From contig JAHBSP010000006.1 in the NCBI GenBank assembly GCA_019639055.1, positions 1 through 64,000 on the forward strand: DNA of 64,000 nt, in the 5' to 3' direction. The DNA is from Microbacteriaceae bacterium (GTDB taxonomy: Bacteria > Actinomycetota > Actinomycetes > Actinomycetales > Microbacteriaceae). The notes under the pieces are model-generated. The model did no database searches and was not told the origin of the DNA. It saw only the letters and a program-made list of their open reading frames with translations. Made by a program: the position numbers and the translations under genes. This document shows positions 5,980 to 30,433 of the stretch, piece after piece (the stretch's first letter is position 1; each line of letters begins with the position of its first letter).

Positions 5980-6483
5980 TTACCCGTAAGTGTCGCGTGG
6001 GCCGCGGCCGGGCACTGTTCTGGAGCCGTGATTCCAGTTTGGTGCCTCGGGACCAACAAAGCGAATTTCAGAAAGTTGCACGCTTGGAAAGTGGCTCTCT
6101 ATATTGTTAATAATTTTAATATGCTCAAGTTTGAGCTGAGTTGCCCATGCAGTTGATTCACACTTAACTAAAAGTTTTCCTGCATTCAGTGAAACAGGTT
6201 TTGTCTTGGCTGCCACTTGGGCTCCAACTATCTCTGACCAGGCTGCAAAAATTCCCGCTTCTTCTAGCTGCGCATCCCATCCCTGGTTAGTGCTAACCAC
6301 TTTAATGATGTCGGCCGCGGCTATTGGATCGCGCCCTTTTCCATACGCTTTTTTGGAGTTTCTAATGTCGGCTAATTTTTTGAGTCCTGAATTACCGCGC
6401 TCTGGTTCCTCGAAATCTAAATCTTCTCGCTTATTCCCAAAAAGTTTTCTAAAGCGCTTATATATCGAAGTCGTTTCTTTCAT
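5980..6483 (-). CDS. DciA-family (DUF721) protein
   Basis: A 167-residue protein with the DUF721/DciA domain in its C-terminal half (about residues 65-150: W..IVG..VA..TKPVSL..GKLLVKCESTAWATQL). DciA proteins help load the replicative helicase DnaB in bacteria that lack DnaC or DnaI; that role is known for the family and inferred here. The N-terminal about 60 residues are charged and probably flexible. It sits between recF and gyrB as in other actinobacteria, and its ATG overlaps the recF stop (ATGA), so the two are translationally coupled. dnaB itself is at 23347 in this window. Confidence 0.9.
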   Translation of the reverse strand: MKETTSIYKRFRKLFGNKREDLDFEEPERGNSGLKKLADIRNSKKAYGKGRDPIAAADIIKVVSTNQGWDAQLEEAGIFAAWSEIVGAQVAAKTKPVSLNAGKLLVKCESTAWATQLKLEHIKIINNIESHFPSVQLSEIRFVGPEAPNWNHGSRTVPGRGPRDTYG

Positions 6484-8750: not shown

Positions 8751-9060
8751 CGTTCCTCCTAAACAGTCTCCAACAATGTTACCGCGAGTGCTTCAGAGCA
8801 TTGGCGTTAGCTTCTTGTATGTAATTTAAATCTAATGTTAATAACACCTGTGGATAGTGTGGATAACTTAGCAGATATCAGTTGAGAGTAAGAAACTACA
8901 TTCTTGTAAGTTGTGTAATTGGTTCGAATAACTCGTGGATAGAATTTTGTCTGTTCCGATACCCCGAAAAACAATCCACAATTTTAGAGAAGTTATCCAC
9001 AGGATATTTGCCTTAATCTATAAGACATTTCCACAAACATGTGGATAACTTCTGCATAGT
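8751..9060. other. oriC: replication origin (oriC) region between dnaA and dnaN
   Basis: This 310-bp gap holds three exact DnaA boxes (TTATCCACA): 8858-8866 minus, 8993-9001 plus and 9040-9048 minus. Weaker copies are visible at 8849-8857 (one mismatch), 8934-8942 and around 8972-8980. An AT-rich stretch (8821-8846, with TTTAAA and AATGTTAATAA) is a candidate unwinding element. The dnaA-dnaN spacer is the known origin location in actinobacteria, and the box density supports it here. Additional exact boxes upstream of dnaA (10477, 10541) may contribute. Confidence 0.9.
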
Positions 9061-10467
9061 TTATGTGTAACGCTGCTTAATCTTTTGCTCTAATTCGGTG
9101 ACCTGGTTGTAAATAACGCGTCTTTCACTCATCAGGTCAATGATTTTATTATTTGCGTACATCACAGTGGTGTGGTCTCTCCCACCAAATAATTTTCCAA
9201 TTTTCGGATAAGCCAAATCGGTAAGATTCCTAACCAGGTACATCGCAATCTGTCTTGCAGTTGCCACTTCCTGTGTTCTACCTGCTCCGTAAATATCTTC
9301 AGTGTCAATATTGAAATATTCAGATACCGCTGTGATTATTTCACTTGGCGATATAACTTGATCATCGTGCAGCGCAATTACGTCTTTGAGCACGATCTGG
9401 ACGAGGTCGAGATCAATTGGTTTCCGATTCAAACTGGCAAAAGCGGAAACCCTAATTAGGGTTCCTTCAAGCTCACGGATATTTGAAGAAATTTTGGTAG
9501 CAATATATTCAAGAACATGGACGTCTATTGAAAGATGCTCAAGTTCTGCTTTTCTGCGCAGAATCGCAATACGAGTTTCAATATCTGGAGCCTGAACATC
9601 TGTGATTAATCCCCATTCAAATCTTGAGCGCATACGTTCCTCAAAGCCCTGAAGTTTCTTCGGAGGAACATCACTTGTGATGACTACTTGTTTGTGGTGA
9701 TCGTGCAAGGTATTGAATGTGTGGAAGAAAGAATCCTGTGTAGAGTCCCTGTTTTGCAGGAATTGAATGTCGTCAATGAGCAAAATATCTACGTCGCGAT
9801 ATCTGGAGTTAAAGGTACTCATTTGGTTACTGGCAATTGAGTTTATGAAGTCGTTAGTGAATTCTTCGCTGGATACGTAGCGGACTTTAATGCCGGGAGT
9901 GTTGGCCAAAGCGTAGTGTCCGATGGCGTGGAGAAGGTGGGTTTTTCCCAGACCACTCTGTCCGTAAATAAACAGTGGGTTGTAACTTCTAGCGGGAGCT
10001 TCAGCAACCGCAAGAGCGGCAGCGTGCGCGAAACGGTTTGACTGTCCGATAACGAAATTATCAAAAGTGTATTTGCTGTTGAGGTTTGATCCTCCGGTAA
10101 CTATTGTCCCGGTGGGCGTCATTTCAACGGTTGGGGTAGTGAAGTTAGTTGGGGGTTCTGCGACTTTGACGGGATCTACTTGGGGTAGCACATCCAGATC
10201 TGGATTAACCGCGATTGCGTAGTTTGTTAGCTCTAAGTTTTCTCCGGCTTCTGAAAGTGCAGCAACAAGAGGGATGCGCAGCTGGGTATTAATGATTCTC
10301 TCGGTTACTGCGTTGGGAACCTCTAAGATAATGGTTCCAGCTGAAATACCCGCAGGCTGAATAAGATCGAGGAAACCTTTTTGATAGTTAGTTATCTGGT
10401 CATCTTTTTCGAGAGAGGAACGAATAGCGTGCCATATTCGAGCGGTCGACTCGTCTTCCTGGGCCAT
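9061..10467 (-). CDS. dnaA: chromosomal replication initiator DnaA
   Basis: The AAA+ initiator that binds DnaA boxes and opens the origin. I chose ATG 10467 (MAQEDESTARIW, 468 residues) because AGGAGGAA sits directly upstream; a longer open frame to 10491 would run through a DnaA box. Walker A GQSGLGKTH is at about 169-177, Walker B follows in the LLIDDIQFL segment, sensor and box VII regions follow, and the C-terminal DNA-binding domain IV carries the GGRDHTTVMYA signature. The spacer domain II is short compared with high-G+C actinobacteria, consistent with a streamlined genome. DnaA boxes immediately before the gene suggest autoregulation. Confidence 0.98.
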   Translation of the reverse strand: MAQEDESTARIWHAIRSSLEKDDQITNYQKGFLDLIQPAGISAGTIILEVPNAVTERIINTQLRIPLVAALSEAGENLELTNYAIAVNPDLDVLPQVDPVKVAEPPTNFTTPTVEMTPTGTIVTGGSNLNSKYTFDNFVIGQSNRFAHAAALAVAEAPARSYNPLFIYGQSGLGKTHLLHAIGHYALANTPGIKVRYVSSEEFTNDFINSIASNQMSTFNSRYRDVDILLIDDIQFLQNRDSTQDSFFHTFNTLHDHHKQVVITSDVPPKKLQGFEERMRSRFEWGLITDVQAPDIETRIAILRRKAELEHLSIDVHVLEYIATKISSNIRELEGTLIRVSAFASLNRKPIDLDLVQIVLKDVIALHDDQVISPSEIITAVSEYFNIDTEDIYGAGRTQEVATARQIAMYLVRNLTDLAYPKIGKLFGGRDHTTVMYANNKIIDLMSERRVIYNQVTELEQKIKQRYT

Positions 10468-10476
10468 GGTTCCTCC

Positions 10477-10549
10477 TGTGGATAACTCCATAAAAACTAA
10501 ACAATTAACCGAAACTAATCAAGTTCTACACAATTTTGCTTGTGGATAA
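10477..10549. promoter_or_regulatory. two DnaA boxes upstream of dnaA
   Basis: Exact TGTGGATAA copies lie at 10477-10485 and 10541-10549, both in the same orientation, in the dnaA-rpmH spacer. The first abuts the dnaA RBS, so DnaA bound there would block its own translation start region or promoter. AT-rich sequence follows at about 10551-10615. They may act in autoregulation of dnaA or as an outer part of the origin; the sequence alone does not decide. Confidence 0.8.
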
Positions 10550-22985: not shown

Positions 22986-23001
22986 CATTACTACACAAAT
23001 G

Positions 23002-23031
23002 GCCGGAAGCACAAGCGCTTCCGGCTTTTTT
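23002..23031 (+). terminator. rho-independent terminator after rplI
   Basis: GCCGGAAGC pairs with GCTTCCGGC around a 6-nt loop, followed by six T residues. This is a perfect 9-bp stem in the right place for ending the rpsF-ssb-rpsR-rplI transcript. Confidence 0.92.
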
Positions 23032-23346
23032 GTCGGTGGATAACCCAACCTTCAAGTAGAGGTTCAAGTAGGTTATCCACATTTTTTTGAACAATATAAA
23101 AACACTGGTCAGAAGGCATATTTGCAGTAAATGTTAGCTAATCTCCCCAGGTTATCCACTACATCAGGCTGGTTATTCACAAAATGTTCCGGCGTTTCGC
23201 GGATGAATTCACAGAGTTATCCACAGGAAATTTCTATTTCCGTCAGTGGTGATTTGTAGCATTGCCAGTGTTGGAATAGTCTTCGATTTGACTCTCGATT
23301 TATCTGGCGAAGATTGCTAAATCTAGGGTTACTTTGAAAGGAATTA
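23032..23346. promoter_or_regulatory. spacer before dnaB with a cluster of five DnaA boxes
   Basis: This gene-free 315-bp stretch contains exact TTATCCACA at 23073-23081 and 23217-23225, TTATTCACA at 23173-23181, and single-mismatch copies at 23152-23160 (TTATCCACT) and 23035-23043 (GGTGGATAA, reverse). The density resembles the origin spacer itself. No RNA gene or ORF is evident. The dnaB RBS (GAAAGGAATTA) is at its right end. It may be a DnaA-controlled dnaB promoter or a DnaA-titration site. Confidence 0.75.
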
Positions 23347-24720
23347 ATGTCAATCACCCCAATCGGTAGGAATGAGTCAAGGCAGGAAGTCCGCTCCGAT
23401 CGCACTCCGCCGCATGACCTCCTTGCCGAACAGAGCGCACTCGGTGGATTGATGTTAAGCAAAGACGCACTAAGCGATGTCTTTTCTCAAGTTCACGGTA
23501 GCGATTTTTACTTCCCCAAACACGAACTCATTTACAACGCCGCAATGAACCTGTTTGCCGCGGGTGAGCCGGTAGATGTTATTTCCGTCTCAGACGAGCT
23601 CACAAAGCGAGGCGAATTAGCCCGCGCTGGGGGTGCAGATTATCTTCACACCCTCATTGGTTTAGTGCCCACCGCTGCCAATGCTGGTTACTACGCTGGC
23701 ATCGTTTCAGAAAAAGCAGTTTTGCGAAGACTTGTAGAAGTAGGAACCAGAATCGCTCAGAGTGGGTATGAAGCAGAGGGTGAAGCTGAGGAACTATTAA
23801 ACAGGGCACAAACTGAAGTTTTTGGTATCAGCGCCGGTTCTGCATCCGAAGATGTTGTTCATGTGGAACAGGCGATCACGGAAGCTACCGACGATATTCA
23901 AAAGGCGGCCGCGCATGACGGAACCTTTACCGGAATCCCAACCGGTTTTGCGCAACTTGATCAGAACACCAACGGATTCCATCCGGGAAATCTGATTCTA
24001 ATTGCCGCCCGCCCTGGTGTTGGTAAGTCAACCCTTGCACTAGATATAGCCAGAAACTCAGCGATAAAGAACAAGATTCCTACCGTATTCTTCTCACTCG
24101 AAATGGGGAGAAGTGAAATCGCAATGAGGATGATTTCTGCGGAATCGAGCATCCCACTTCAAGTGTTGCGCCGTGGAATTAGAGACTCAAAAGACTGGAC
24201 CACGCTGGCACATGTAAATACCAGAATTAGCGATTCAACACTTTATCTCGATGACAGCCCTAATATGACACTTGCAGAGATCAGAGCCAAGTGCCGTAGA
24301 ATGAGCGCAACAACAGGATTGGGTTTAGTGATTATTGACTACCTGCAACTTATGAGTAGTGGCAAGAAGGTAGAAAACCGACAGCAAGAAGTTTCAGAGT
24401 TTTCTCGCTCCTTGAAACTGCTAGCAAAAGAATTGAAAATCCCAGTTATCGCACTTTCTCAGTTAAACCGTGGTCTTGAAAACAGGGGTGGCAATAAAGA
24501 ACCACAGCTTTCCGATTTGCGTGAATCTGGATCCCTCGAGCAGGATGCAGACATTGTGCTCATGATCAATCGTGAGATGGGTGTTCAAGATCGCGAAGAC
24601 CCACGTTACGGCCTCGCAGAGATCCTAATAGCTAAGAACCGTAACGGTCCCACCGGAAAATTTGATGTTTCTTTCCAGGGTCATTTGCAACGGTTCTCAG
24701 AAATTGCCCCAAGCGCTTAA
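23347..24720 (+). CDS. dnaB: replicative DNA helicase DnaB
   Basis: The hexameric 5'-3' helicase of the replication fork, 457 residues and without an intein. The N-terminal collar domain begins at PPHDLLAEQSALGGLML. The RecA-like motor has Walker A ARPGVGKST (about residues 219-227), Walker B LVIIDYLQLM (about 328-337) and the LSQLNRGLENR / LSDLRESGSLEQDAD motifs. Its likely loader is the DciA protein near recF. The DnaA boxes in front of it suggest coupling of expression to replication initiation. Confidence 0.97.
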   Translation: MSITPIGRNESRQEVRSDRTPPHDLLAEQSALGGLMLSKDALSDVFSQVHGSDFYFPKHELIYNAAMNLFAAGEPVDVISVSDELTKRGELARAGGADYLHTLIGLVPTAANAGYYAGIVSEKAVLRRLVEVGTRIAQSGYEAEGEAEELLNRAQTEVFGISAGSASEDVVHVEQAITEATDDIQKAAAHDGTFTGIPTGFAQLDQNTNGFHPGNLILIAARPGVGKSTLALDIARNSAIKNKIPTVFFSLEMGRSEIAMRMISAESSIPLQVLRRGIRDSKDWTTLAHVNTRISDSTLYLDDSPNMTLAEIRAKCRRMSATTGLGLVIIDYLQLMSSGKKVENRQQEVSEFSRSLKLLAKELKIPVIALSQLNRGLENRGGNKEPQLSDLRESGSLEQDADIVLMINREMGVQDREDPRYGLAEILIAKNRNGPTGKFDVSFQGHLQRFSEIAPSA

Positions 24721-28500: not shown

Positions 28501-28945
28501 GAAATACGAAAAGAATATCTTCCGATATTTACCGGCACTAAACCCAGTCATAATCCGTTTAGAGCCATCGGGTACTTGGGCTGAACTCTGCCGTGTGCTT
28601 GCTGCCGCCATTCGTGCTGGTTCCAAAACAGTAATCTCTGTTTATACCGAACCACCGGCAAAATTGGTCAAGTTCATAAAATCTATAACCCAACTCATTG
28701 TGGAAGATGATGAGGCTTGGAACACCAGAGTTATCGCAATGGAAAGTGGCAGAATTAGGCTCATTGGCGCATCTCCGGAACAACTGAAAAGTCAGATATA
28801 CGCTAACCCGACGCTCGCTGTTTGGAGCGGTGAAGTTACAACCGCCGGCAGACTGGAAATCCTACCTTTTATCCAAGAGCAGAGCGTGAGTATTACCGCT
28901 CACCGCTTCGGCACTTTACTTGAAGTGGCGAAGATAAACGATTAG
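25577..28945 (+). CDS. putA: bifunctional proline dehydrogenase / glutamate semialdehyde dehydrogenase (PutA type)
   Basis: A 1122-residue fusion that oxidises proline to glutamate in two steps. Residues about 1-430 form the FAD-dependent proline dehydrogenase barrel (VSIKVSAAVAP, LDMEEYKDL, RLVKGANLPME and the C-terminal AYLIRRLEEG substrate motif). Residues about 480-940 form the aldehyde dehydrogenase with the Glu in LAETSGKN (about 690), the nucleophile Cys in GQKCSA (about 725) and the EYFGPVLGI motif. A C-terminal segment of about 180 residues follows. There is no N-terminal ribbon-helix-helix DNA-binding domain, so it is not the autoregulatory PutA form. The start is GTG 25577 or ATG 25580, with a weak RBS. 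The 3' end overlaps purB by 30 bp. Confidence 0.93.
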   Translation: MMTWLEDAKNIPVNKSAKRLAGVLRDPHGLRFTVAFVDGVVRPEDVHIAAKKLAQIAPEVPKFLPVHLRMAIRAGGIFAPILPWAIVPIARKVIRGMVSHLIIDSTDTKLSKAIQAHRGEGIRLNINLLGEAVLGKKEAAKRIAGTKRLLARSDVDYVSIKVSAAVAPHSPWAFDAAVTKIVDELLPLYQLANAFSPKKFINLDMEEYKDLDLTIQVFTSILGRPEFKNLTAGIVLQAYLPDSLPAMKKLQEWSAHRVAAGGAPIKVRLVKGANLPMEKVDADIHGWPLATWSSKQETDAQYKRILNFALDPEHIKNIRLGVAGHNLFDIAYAWLLAGENSVREHLDFEMLLGMAPAQAEAVRRTVGGLILYTPVVAPSEFDVAIAYLIRRLEEGASTENFMSAVFELAENSELFIREQKRFGAALENIEKDVQSTNRVAKRYAAVPEPSAESFVNTPDTDPAIESNREWAAGILESAKNSELGKQAVADSIISAGDVPEIVNDCSKAANDWAALGASRRAEILEECGKALESYRAEFLEIMAHEAGKTIEQGDPEVSEAIDFAYYYAGQALLLEKISGATFTPAAVTLITPPWNFPLAIPAGSTLAALAAGSSVILKPARLTARTASLIAEVFWEAGVPKDVLKFVVPKDRAASSALVSDPGVDRVVLTGSYETAQLFRQLRPDLPLLAETSGKNAIIVTPSADFDLAVKDIIYSAFGHAGQKCSAASLVILVGSVSKSHRFREQLLDAAFSLVVGSATNPETQMGPIIDTPGEKLLSGLTILGSGESWFLCPQEIAPNIWTPGIRDGVKRGSEFHTVEYFGPVLGIMTAATLEDAVKIVNEVEYGLTSGLHSLDSSEISYWAKHIHAGNLYVNRGTTGAIVRRQPFGGWKKSAVGPGAKAGGPNYLIGFGTWNVAQPQAIEGEAIPDIELLPEVVELKEALDSGKDFDFCAAGIQSDEQAWRNHFAPKDVSVLKYEKNIFRYLPALNPVIIRLEPSGTWAELCRVLAAAIRAGSKTVISVYTEPPAKLVKFIKSITQLIVEDDEAWNTRVIAMESGRIRLIGASPEQLKSQIYANPTLAVWSGEVTTAGRLEILPFIQEQSVSITAHRFGTLLEVAKIND

Positions 28946-30295
28946 TTCTGAAGCCAGACCCGTGTATGTTTCCGGGGTGAGTGCTTTCAGGGACTCTTTT
29001 CGGTCATCTGGAATATCTAAAGTGTCAATAAAACGGGCAAAATCTTCGCGAGTTAGGCGCTTACCGCGGGTAAGGTCTTTCAACAGAGCGTAAGGGTCAC
29101 TGATGCTTGATTTTCCTTCAGCAACAGCTGCTCGAATAACTGTCTGAATCGGTTCTGCAAGAACTTCCCAATTCTCATCCAGATCTTGCAGCATGACTTC
29201 TCCGGCAACATCTAGTTGTTCCAAGCCTCCGGCAAGATTTTCCAGAGCAAGTAGCGAATGCGCAATCGCTACCCCAATATTTCGCTGAGTGGTCGAGTCG
29301 GTGAGGTCTCTCTGCAAACGGCTGGTTACCAAACTGGTTGCAAGAGTGTGTAAAAGCCCGGTAGAAATTTCTAAGTTTGCCTCGGAGTTTTCGAACTTAA
29401 TTGGATTGATCTTGTGTGGCATTGTCGAAGATCCCGTCGCACCGGGGACGGGTATCTGCCTGAAGTATCCGAGTGAAATGTAGGTCCAGATATCGGTTGC
29501 AAGGTTGTGTAGCACTCCATTAGCGTGTGCGATTTTGTAGAAAAGCGAGACCTGCCAGTCGTGCGATTCGATCTGAGTAGTGAGCGGATTCCATTGCAGG
29601 CCAAGGGATTCGACCAGAGCTCTCGACAGTGCTGGCCAGTCTGTGTTTGGGGCGGCTGCAAGATGTGCCGAGAAAGTTCCGGTAGCTCCGCTAAATTTGC
29701 CCAAGTATTTGTGGGAGCGGATTTCATTTCGGATTCCGCGCAAACGGAAAGCAAAAACTGCAAATTCTTTACCGAGAGTGGTTGGTGTGGCCGGTTGTCC
29801 GTGGGTGCGAGAGAGCATCGCCTGGTCACGGTAATTGACTGCATATTCGTCAATAATTTCAATGACTCGATCAAGTGCAGGAAGCCAGATGTCTTCTACC
29901 GCGACTTTCACCGTGATTGCATAGGAGAGGTTGTTGATATCTTCCGAAGTGCAGGCAAAATGCACTAACTCGTCTAAGCGAGAAAGCCCAGCAGCGTCTA
30001 GTCGTCTGCGGATCAAGTACTCGACAGCTTTAACGTCATGTTTTGTAGTGGCTTCAATTTCGGCAAGTTCGGCAGCATCTTCGTCGGTGAAAGTAGCGGC
30101 AATTTTTTTCAAAGCTGAAGCTTCGGATGCACTCAGCGCTTTAACTTCAAAAGTTCCGCTATTTACTAGTTGCTGTAGCCATTGAATCTCGACTCTTACC
30201 CTAGCTGCGTTCAAAGAAGTTTCAGAGAGGTGCTCAGCAATACCGGAGACTTGATTGTAGTAACGACCGTCTAGTGGGCTAATTGGAGAATTCAA
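28916..30295 (-). CDS. purB: adenylosuccinate lyase
   Basis: A 459-residue enzyme of the fumarase/aspartase superfamily that acts twice in purine synthesis: it releases fumarate from SAICAR and from adenylosuccinate. The superfamily signature is STMPHKINPIKFENSEAN (about 285-302). Catalytic His regions are seen in TKHDVKAVEYLI and SRTHGQPATPTTLGKEFA. The HFACTSEDINN motif is typical of the PurB subgroup with 450-460 residues. The gene converges on putA with a 30-bp overlap and no visible terminator. Confidence 0.97.
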   Translation of the reverse strand: MNSPISPLDGRYYNQVSGIAEHLSETSLNAARVRVEIQWLQQLVNSGTFEVKALSASEASALKKIAATFTDEDAAELAEIEATTKHDVKAVEYLIRRRLDAAGLSRLDELVHFACTSEDINNLSYAITVKVAVEDIWLPALDRVIEIIDEYAVNYRDQAMLSRTHGQPATPTTLGKEFAVFAFRLRGIRNEIRSHKYLGKFSGATGTFSAHLAAAPNTDWPALSRALVESLGLQWNPLTTQIESHDWQVSLFYKIAHANGVLHNLATDIWTYISLGYFRQIPVPGATGSSTMPHKINPIKFENSEANLEISTGLLHTLATSLVTSRLQRDLTDSTTQRNIGVAIAHSLLALENLAGGLEQLDVAGEVMLQDLDENWEVLAEPIQTVIRAAVAEGKSSISDPYALLKDLTRGKRLTREDFARFIDTLDIPDDRKESLKALTPETYTGLASELIVYLRHFK

Positions 30296-30433
30296 CTTAA
30301 AAAGGCTCTTTCGCTAGGGCGTTTCTCGAACGAAATCAGGATCCATTTCAATTCTAAACTGCCTCAAGCATTGCAGTCTTATCCACATCATGCAGATTCG
30401 AACCTAAAAAATTAGCCAAAGTTGGAGAAACTG

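Follow-up and report, generated by a model that had tools for sequence, protein, structure and literature searches.

The gene of the replicative helicase, dnaB, is preceded in the genome of a Microbacteriaceae bacterium by a cluster of DnaA boxes, which is real and lies in the same window (the whole stretch of 64,000 nucleotides analyzed here) as the likely origin of replication. The boxes form a helically phased array next to the predicted -35 element of dnaB, and it is probable that this array controls the gene, most likely by activating it, with helicase supply tracking the activity of the initiator.

DnaA boxes in the rplI-dnaB spacer

Five DnaA boxes are packed into 191 bp (23035-23225) of the spacer between rplI and dnaB (22986-23346). 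Upstream lies rplI, which encodes ribosomal protein L9 (22533..22985, plus strand; Pfam PF03948 and PF01281), followed by the intrinsic terminator of its operon, with a 10-bp stem and a U-run (23001..23032, plus strand); two intrinsic terminators were found against 0.3 expected in shuffled sequences. The row of boxes begins just past this terminator and stops 121 bp short of the start codon of dnaB (23347..24720, plus strand; Pfam PF00772 and PF03796). Box 1 (TTATCCACC, one mismatch, 23035..23043) is the only one of the five on the minus strand, and minus-strand boxes at a similar place are also found in Rhodoluna-like relatives. On the plus strand are box 2 (TTATCCACA, exact, 23073..23081), box 3 (TTATCCACT, one mismatch, 23152..23160), box 4 (TTATTCACA, one mismatch, 23173..23181), which starts 21 bp after box 3, and the promoter-proximal box 5 (TTATCCACA, exact, 23217..23225), located 44 bp after box 4 and 144 bp, or 13.1 turns of 11 bp, after box 2. 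These two exact boxes and three with one mismatch bear out a preliminary description of this DNA, in which five boxes had been placed before dnaB.

An inverted repeat, AACCT-N8-AGGTT, was also observed between boxes 1 and 2 (23047-23064). Nine Rhodoluna-like relatives (L007-L012, L017, L023, and L026) have this repeat in the corresponding position, while most others are without it; it may be a site for a second regulator.

The cluster was compared with chance and with the rest of the genome. No more than 3 boxes fell within 191 bp in 300 first-order Markov simulations of the 64-kb window, compared with the 5 observed, and the 347 one-mismatch sites present in the 1.416 Mb genome correspond to 6.7e-5 such five-box places expected genome-wide. 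Over the 1.416 Mb, 54 strong sites (TTATNCACA) were counted, compared with 19 occurrences of the reversed motif, and the exact TTATCCACA occurs at 22 sites in the genome, 2 of them in the dnaB cluster. Clusters were assessed genome-wide through pattern searches and through the stretches around the strong TTATNCACA sites, of which the best outside the window held, over 320 bp, 3 boxes including two weak ones. The preliminary description had allowed that similar clusters might exist at many random loci; around TTATNCACA sites there was none outside oriC, where the dnaB cluster of five boxes has no equal among clusters with at least one such site.

Two further occurrences were recorded in this genome. 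The second-best group of boxes outside oriC and dnaB (G000:C10:54356; L205:857-1050) consists of one exact and two weak boxes and starts at the end of a reading frame resembling an ABC-transporter permease. Besides, a lone exact TTATCCACA is located at 30379-30387, upstream of purB (adenylosuccinate lyase; 28916-30295, minus strand) and 84 bp from its called start.

The initiator, which presumably binds these boxes, is encoded by dnaA (9061..10491, minus strand), recognized by the Bac_DnaA_C DNA-binding domain of Pfam. The dnaN-dnaA spacer (8751..9060), likely to be oriC, contains four boxes and an AT-rich stretch (8807-8846), and the minimum of the GC skew falls within it, 14 kb away from the dnaB boxes. 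In addition, dciA (helicase operator, PF05258) was found at 5980-6483, on the dnaA-dnaN side of the origin region. Counting boxes with at most one mismatch, the five in 191 bp before dnaB compare with four in 310 bp in the dnaN-dnaA spacer, in agreement with the earlier statement of an origin-like density 14 kb from the origin. This equal density could indicate a secondary replication origin at the dnaB spacer, as could an AT-rich stretch adjoining box 2 (78% AT over 40 bp at 23063), even though that stretch includes the box itself. The GC skew of the window, however, changes direction a single time, at about 9 kb and not at 23 kb, and in high-GC relatives that have these boxes even the 30 bp of the spacer richest in AT reach 37-57% GC. 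Based on the skew and on the GC content of the relatives' spacers, a secondary origin was rejected as extremely improbable.

Conservation of the boxes across Actinomycetes

One genome scan yielded 80 dnaB loci, mostly labelled as Microbacteriaceae, Rhodoluna, Planktophila/Nanopelagicaceae, or simply actinobacteria, and boxes precede dnaB in nearly all members of this set that have an upstream stretch, which disposes of the concern that close relatives might be devoid of them. Within the 450 bp before dnaB, boxes reached a density of 9.56 per kb (327 in total) in 76 loci of the Microbacteriaceae/Nanopelagicales type, compared with 0.50 per kb (17 in total) for the reversed motif, while the other non-coding DNA of these 76 loci contained 3 boxes in 31.6 kb (0.09 per kb). 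Similarly, 126 boxes against 5 reversed motifs were counted in 30 loci of the family and order.

The class was represented by 40 loci, about one per family, in which 119 boxes were found before dnaB. The reversed motif occurred 11 times there and the most upstream 600 bp of the loci contained 8 boxes, and 25 of the 40 had at least three boxes before dnaB. Outside the class, 40 families of the same phylum gave 31 boxes against 8 reversed motifs, with at least three boxes in 2 of the 40; the loci share ancestry and their counts are not independent, an effect that sampling one locus per family and the contrast with other classes reduce but do not remove. Judged from the sequences compared, the box array before dnaB belongs to the class Actinomycetes, with few exceptions within it, and is nearly absent outside. 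The exceptions were G030 and G035, with no boxes before dnaB, and G015, whose single match is weak and over 900 bp upstream. Since a few members lack the boxes, the control would be dispensable.

In five genomes (G025, G028, G031, G032, and G038) the dnaB matches were split within open frames 889-1451 codons long, probably because of inteins.

Helical phase, orientation, and promoter geometry

The boxes of the class loci share a common orientation and spacing. Forward boxes, pointing towards dnaB, numbered 97 against 22 reverse, and the distances between plus-strand boxes showed peaks at 11-12, 21-22, 32-33, 44, 54-55, and 65-66 bp. The fit of these distances to an 11-bp period gave a mean cosine of 0.80, a value reached by none of 5000 jittered sets. 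In the window, boxes 2 to 5 are within one base of a common 11-bp phase when box 5 is taken as the reference.

A scan of the window spacer for sigma-70 promoters found no consensus promoter, and the promoter of the window was placed by comparison with relatives. The predicted -10 element of dnaB is TAGCAT (23257..23262, plus strand), 40 bp downstream of the first base of box 5, with a weak -35 element at about 23233-23238 and a transcription start predicted near 23269. Such a poor -35 element would fit a promoter that needs an activator. Of 42 loci belonging to Microbacteriaceae or their close neighbours, 28 have TANNNT at 39-41 bp downstream of the first base of the last box, while other 5-bp bins held at most 7, and in many of these 42 loci a TTG-type -35 element stands 6-7 bp past the last box. 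Across the class, a simple scan predicted 24 -35 elements, and 9 of them follow the last box by no more than 12 bp, compared with 0.5 expected in shuffled sequences; the same scan recognized no promoter in about 15 of 39 class loci. A second promoter candidate, TTGTAG-17-TAGTCT, is present downstream in the window. Regarding a structured RNA in the spacer, no Rfam match was found above threshold and the stretch after the predicted start folds no more than shuffled sequences (z -0.8), so this candidate was discarded.

These arrangements suggest how the array could work. DnaA would bind in a cooperative manner to boxes that the 11-bp phase places on one face of the helix, forming an ordered array. 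The last box is only a few bases away from the -35 element, on its upstream side, and bound DnaA may contact RNA polymerase and raise dnaB transcription. Helicase supply would then follow initiator activity, and some titration of DnaA near oriC would be a side effect. For the organism of the window, DnaA binding, the activating sign, and variation over the cell cycle are parts of this scheme that we infer.

The sign of the control deserves separate consideration, since a box adjoining the -35 element could work in either direction. DnaA is a repressor of its own gene. Its autoregulation is also mentioned in the study of Hicks et al. (2020; PMC7738170). An array next to the -35 element might likewise block or slow RNA polymerase at dnaB, as negative feedback when DnaA is abundant. 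In Microbacteriaceae, however, the boxes are upstream of the -35 and -10 elements and do not overlap them, and in M. tuberculosis the DnaA I282T mutant, with less binding upstream of dnaB, under-expresses dnaB, although this is a correlative observation on one mutant (Hicks et al., 2020). Repression of dnaB by DnaA appears quite unlikely on these grounds. The single orientation, the helical phase, and the position upstream of the -35 element are together the layout of an activator and, with the mycobacterial data, favour activation.

Association of the array with dnaB and distance to dnaA

An initiation-control sink has also to be weighed, in which the cluster would serve chiefly to titrate DnaA or to promote the hydrolysis of ATP-DnaA soon after being copied, and its location at dnaB would be incidental. 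The cluster is outside oriC but near it: dnaB is 14 kb from oriC here, and about 19-95 kb separate it from dnaA in most relatives with a measurable distance. Apart from G035, the complete genomes with a measured or estimated distance have no more than about 100 kb between the two genes, several of these values being estimates from rounded genome sizes. In B. subtilis and S. coelicolor, initiation is held back by clusters near oriC, according to the literature cited in PMC4585315. Moreover, the boxes are gone in G035, the relative whose dnaB moved 268 kb away from dnaA.

Other features of the same loci point away from a sink. Where genes intervene between rplI and dnaB (L024, L032, L045, L047, L063, and L074, with rplI at least 1.3 kb away), the boxes go with dnaB, at no more than 400 bp from it, and not with rplI. 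In G035, rplI stayed near dnaA, and boxes are missing both before dnaB and after rplI, so the move left no cluster behind. The attachment to dnaB and the loss in G035 argue that the array is a control element of dnaB. Besides, titration has no need of a fixed distance between the boxes and the -10 element, and the position of the boxes is not independent of the promoter. The capacity of a sink looks small as well, given that only 2 of the 22 exact sites of the genome are located here. As the main role of the cluster, a sink seems unlikely. Overall, the three roles proposed in the preliminary description fared differently: the link to helicase supply is well supported by promoter geometry, conservation, and the mycobacterial data, titration is possible, and a secondary origin is not supported by the skew or by the GC content of relatives.

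The genome of G035, with its box-less dnaB promoter, carries seven DnaA boxes beside a rhomboid protease gene (L236; G035:C1:453118-453535), which may be a further DnaA-binding locus of that organism.

Comparison with known systems and implications

The preliminary description had stated that no standard account of such a cluster existed for actinobacteria, which proved wrong. In the work of Hicks et al. (2020; PMC7738170), binding of DnaA to the region before dnaB was mapped both in vitro, for M. tuberculosis, and in vivo, for M. smegmatis. The dnaB upstream region was among the five strongest sites pulled down with DnaA of M. tuberculosis, and homologues of these five sites were found by ChIP in M. 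smegmatis (Hicks et al., 2020). The mycobacterial site shares the gene context and the class with the window locus, and the Mycobacteriaceae-type loci of our sample (f19, L131-L136) have 2-8 boxes before dnaB; M. tuberculosis differs in having an extra gene, Rv0057, upstream of dnaB (Hicks et al., 2020). In sequence terms, the window locus is consistent with a DnaA-regulated dnaB promoter of the mycobacterial type, with boxes upstream, an arrangement kept in relatives, and a fixed promoter position. In contrast, helical phase, promoter geometry, and conservation across the class are absent from the account of the mycobacterial site in the available part of that article.

Groups of boxes outside the origin are known from other bacteria. 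Clusters near oriC were described in S. coelicolor (Smulczyk-Krawczyszyn et al., 2006) and B. subtilis (Okumura et al., 2012), both cited in PMC4585315, but the role described there is the restraint of initiation. In the Streptomyces-like family f18 of our sample, four boxes precede dnaB in three loci (L122, L137, and L138). The datA locus of E. coli is likewise a group of DnaA boxes outside oriC; it differs in depending on IHF and on DnaA-ATP hydrolysis and is not a conserved helicase promoter. In Caulobacter crescentus, from a distant phylum, DnaA also binds before dnaB, as a regulator (Hottes et al., 2005, cited in Hicks et al., 2020). Our search for DnaA boxes before dnaB in other actinobacteria, which covered mainly the openly accessible literature, returned nothing beyond Hicks et al. 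(2020), and no account of class-wide conservation, phase, or promoter geometry came up in that literature. Altogether, this kind of control is already known, with DnaA at dnaB in mycobacteria and Caulobacter, while the class-wide conservation, the phase, and the promoter geometry appear to be new.

We lean slightly towards the broader proposal that activation of dnaB by a DnaA array in helical phase, with boxes in one direction and at a constant distance from the promoter, is an ancestral circuit of the class, which would tie the supply of helicase to the activity of the initiator in streptomycetes, mycobacteria, Microbacteriaceae, and the freshwater Nanopelagicales and would be near-absent from the other classes of the phylum. 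The fixed geometry makes this idea easy to test. What had been a single mycobacterial ChIP peak would become a class-wide rule, in which the initiator appears to be wired to the helicase gene by a conserved DNA geometry. Most models of initiation control hold the helicase constant and treat DnaA as the sole variable. If helicase supply does follow DnaA across the Actinomycetes, the timing of initiation and the response to DnaA levels would need rethinking in antibiotic producers and in mycobacteria.
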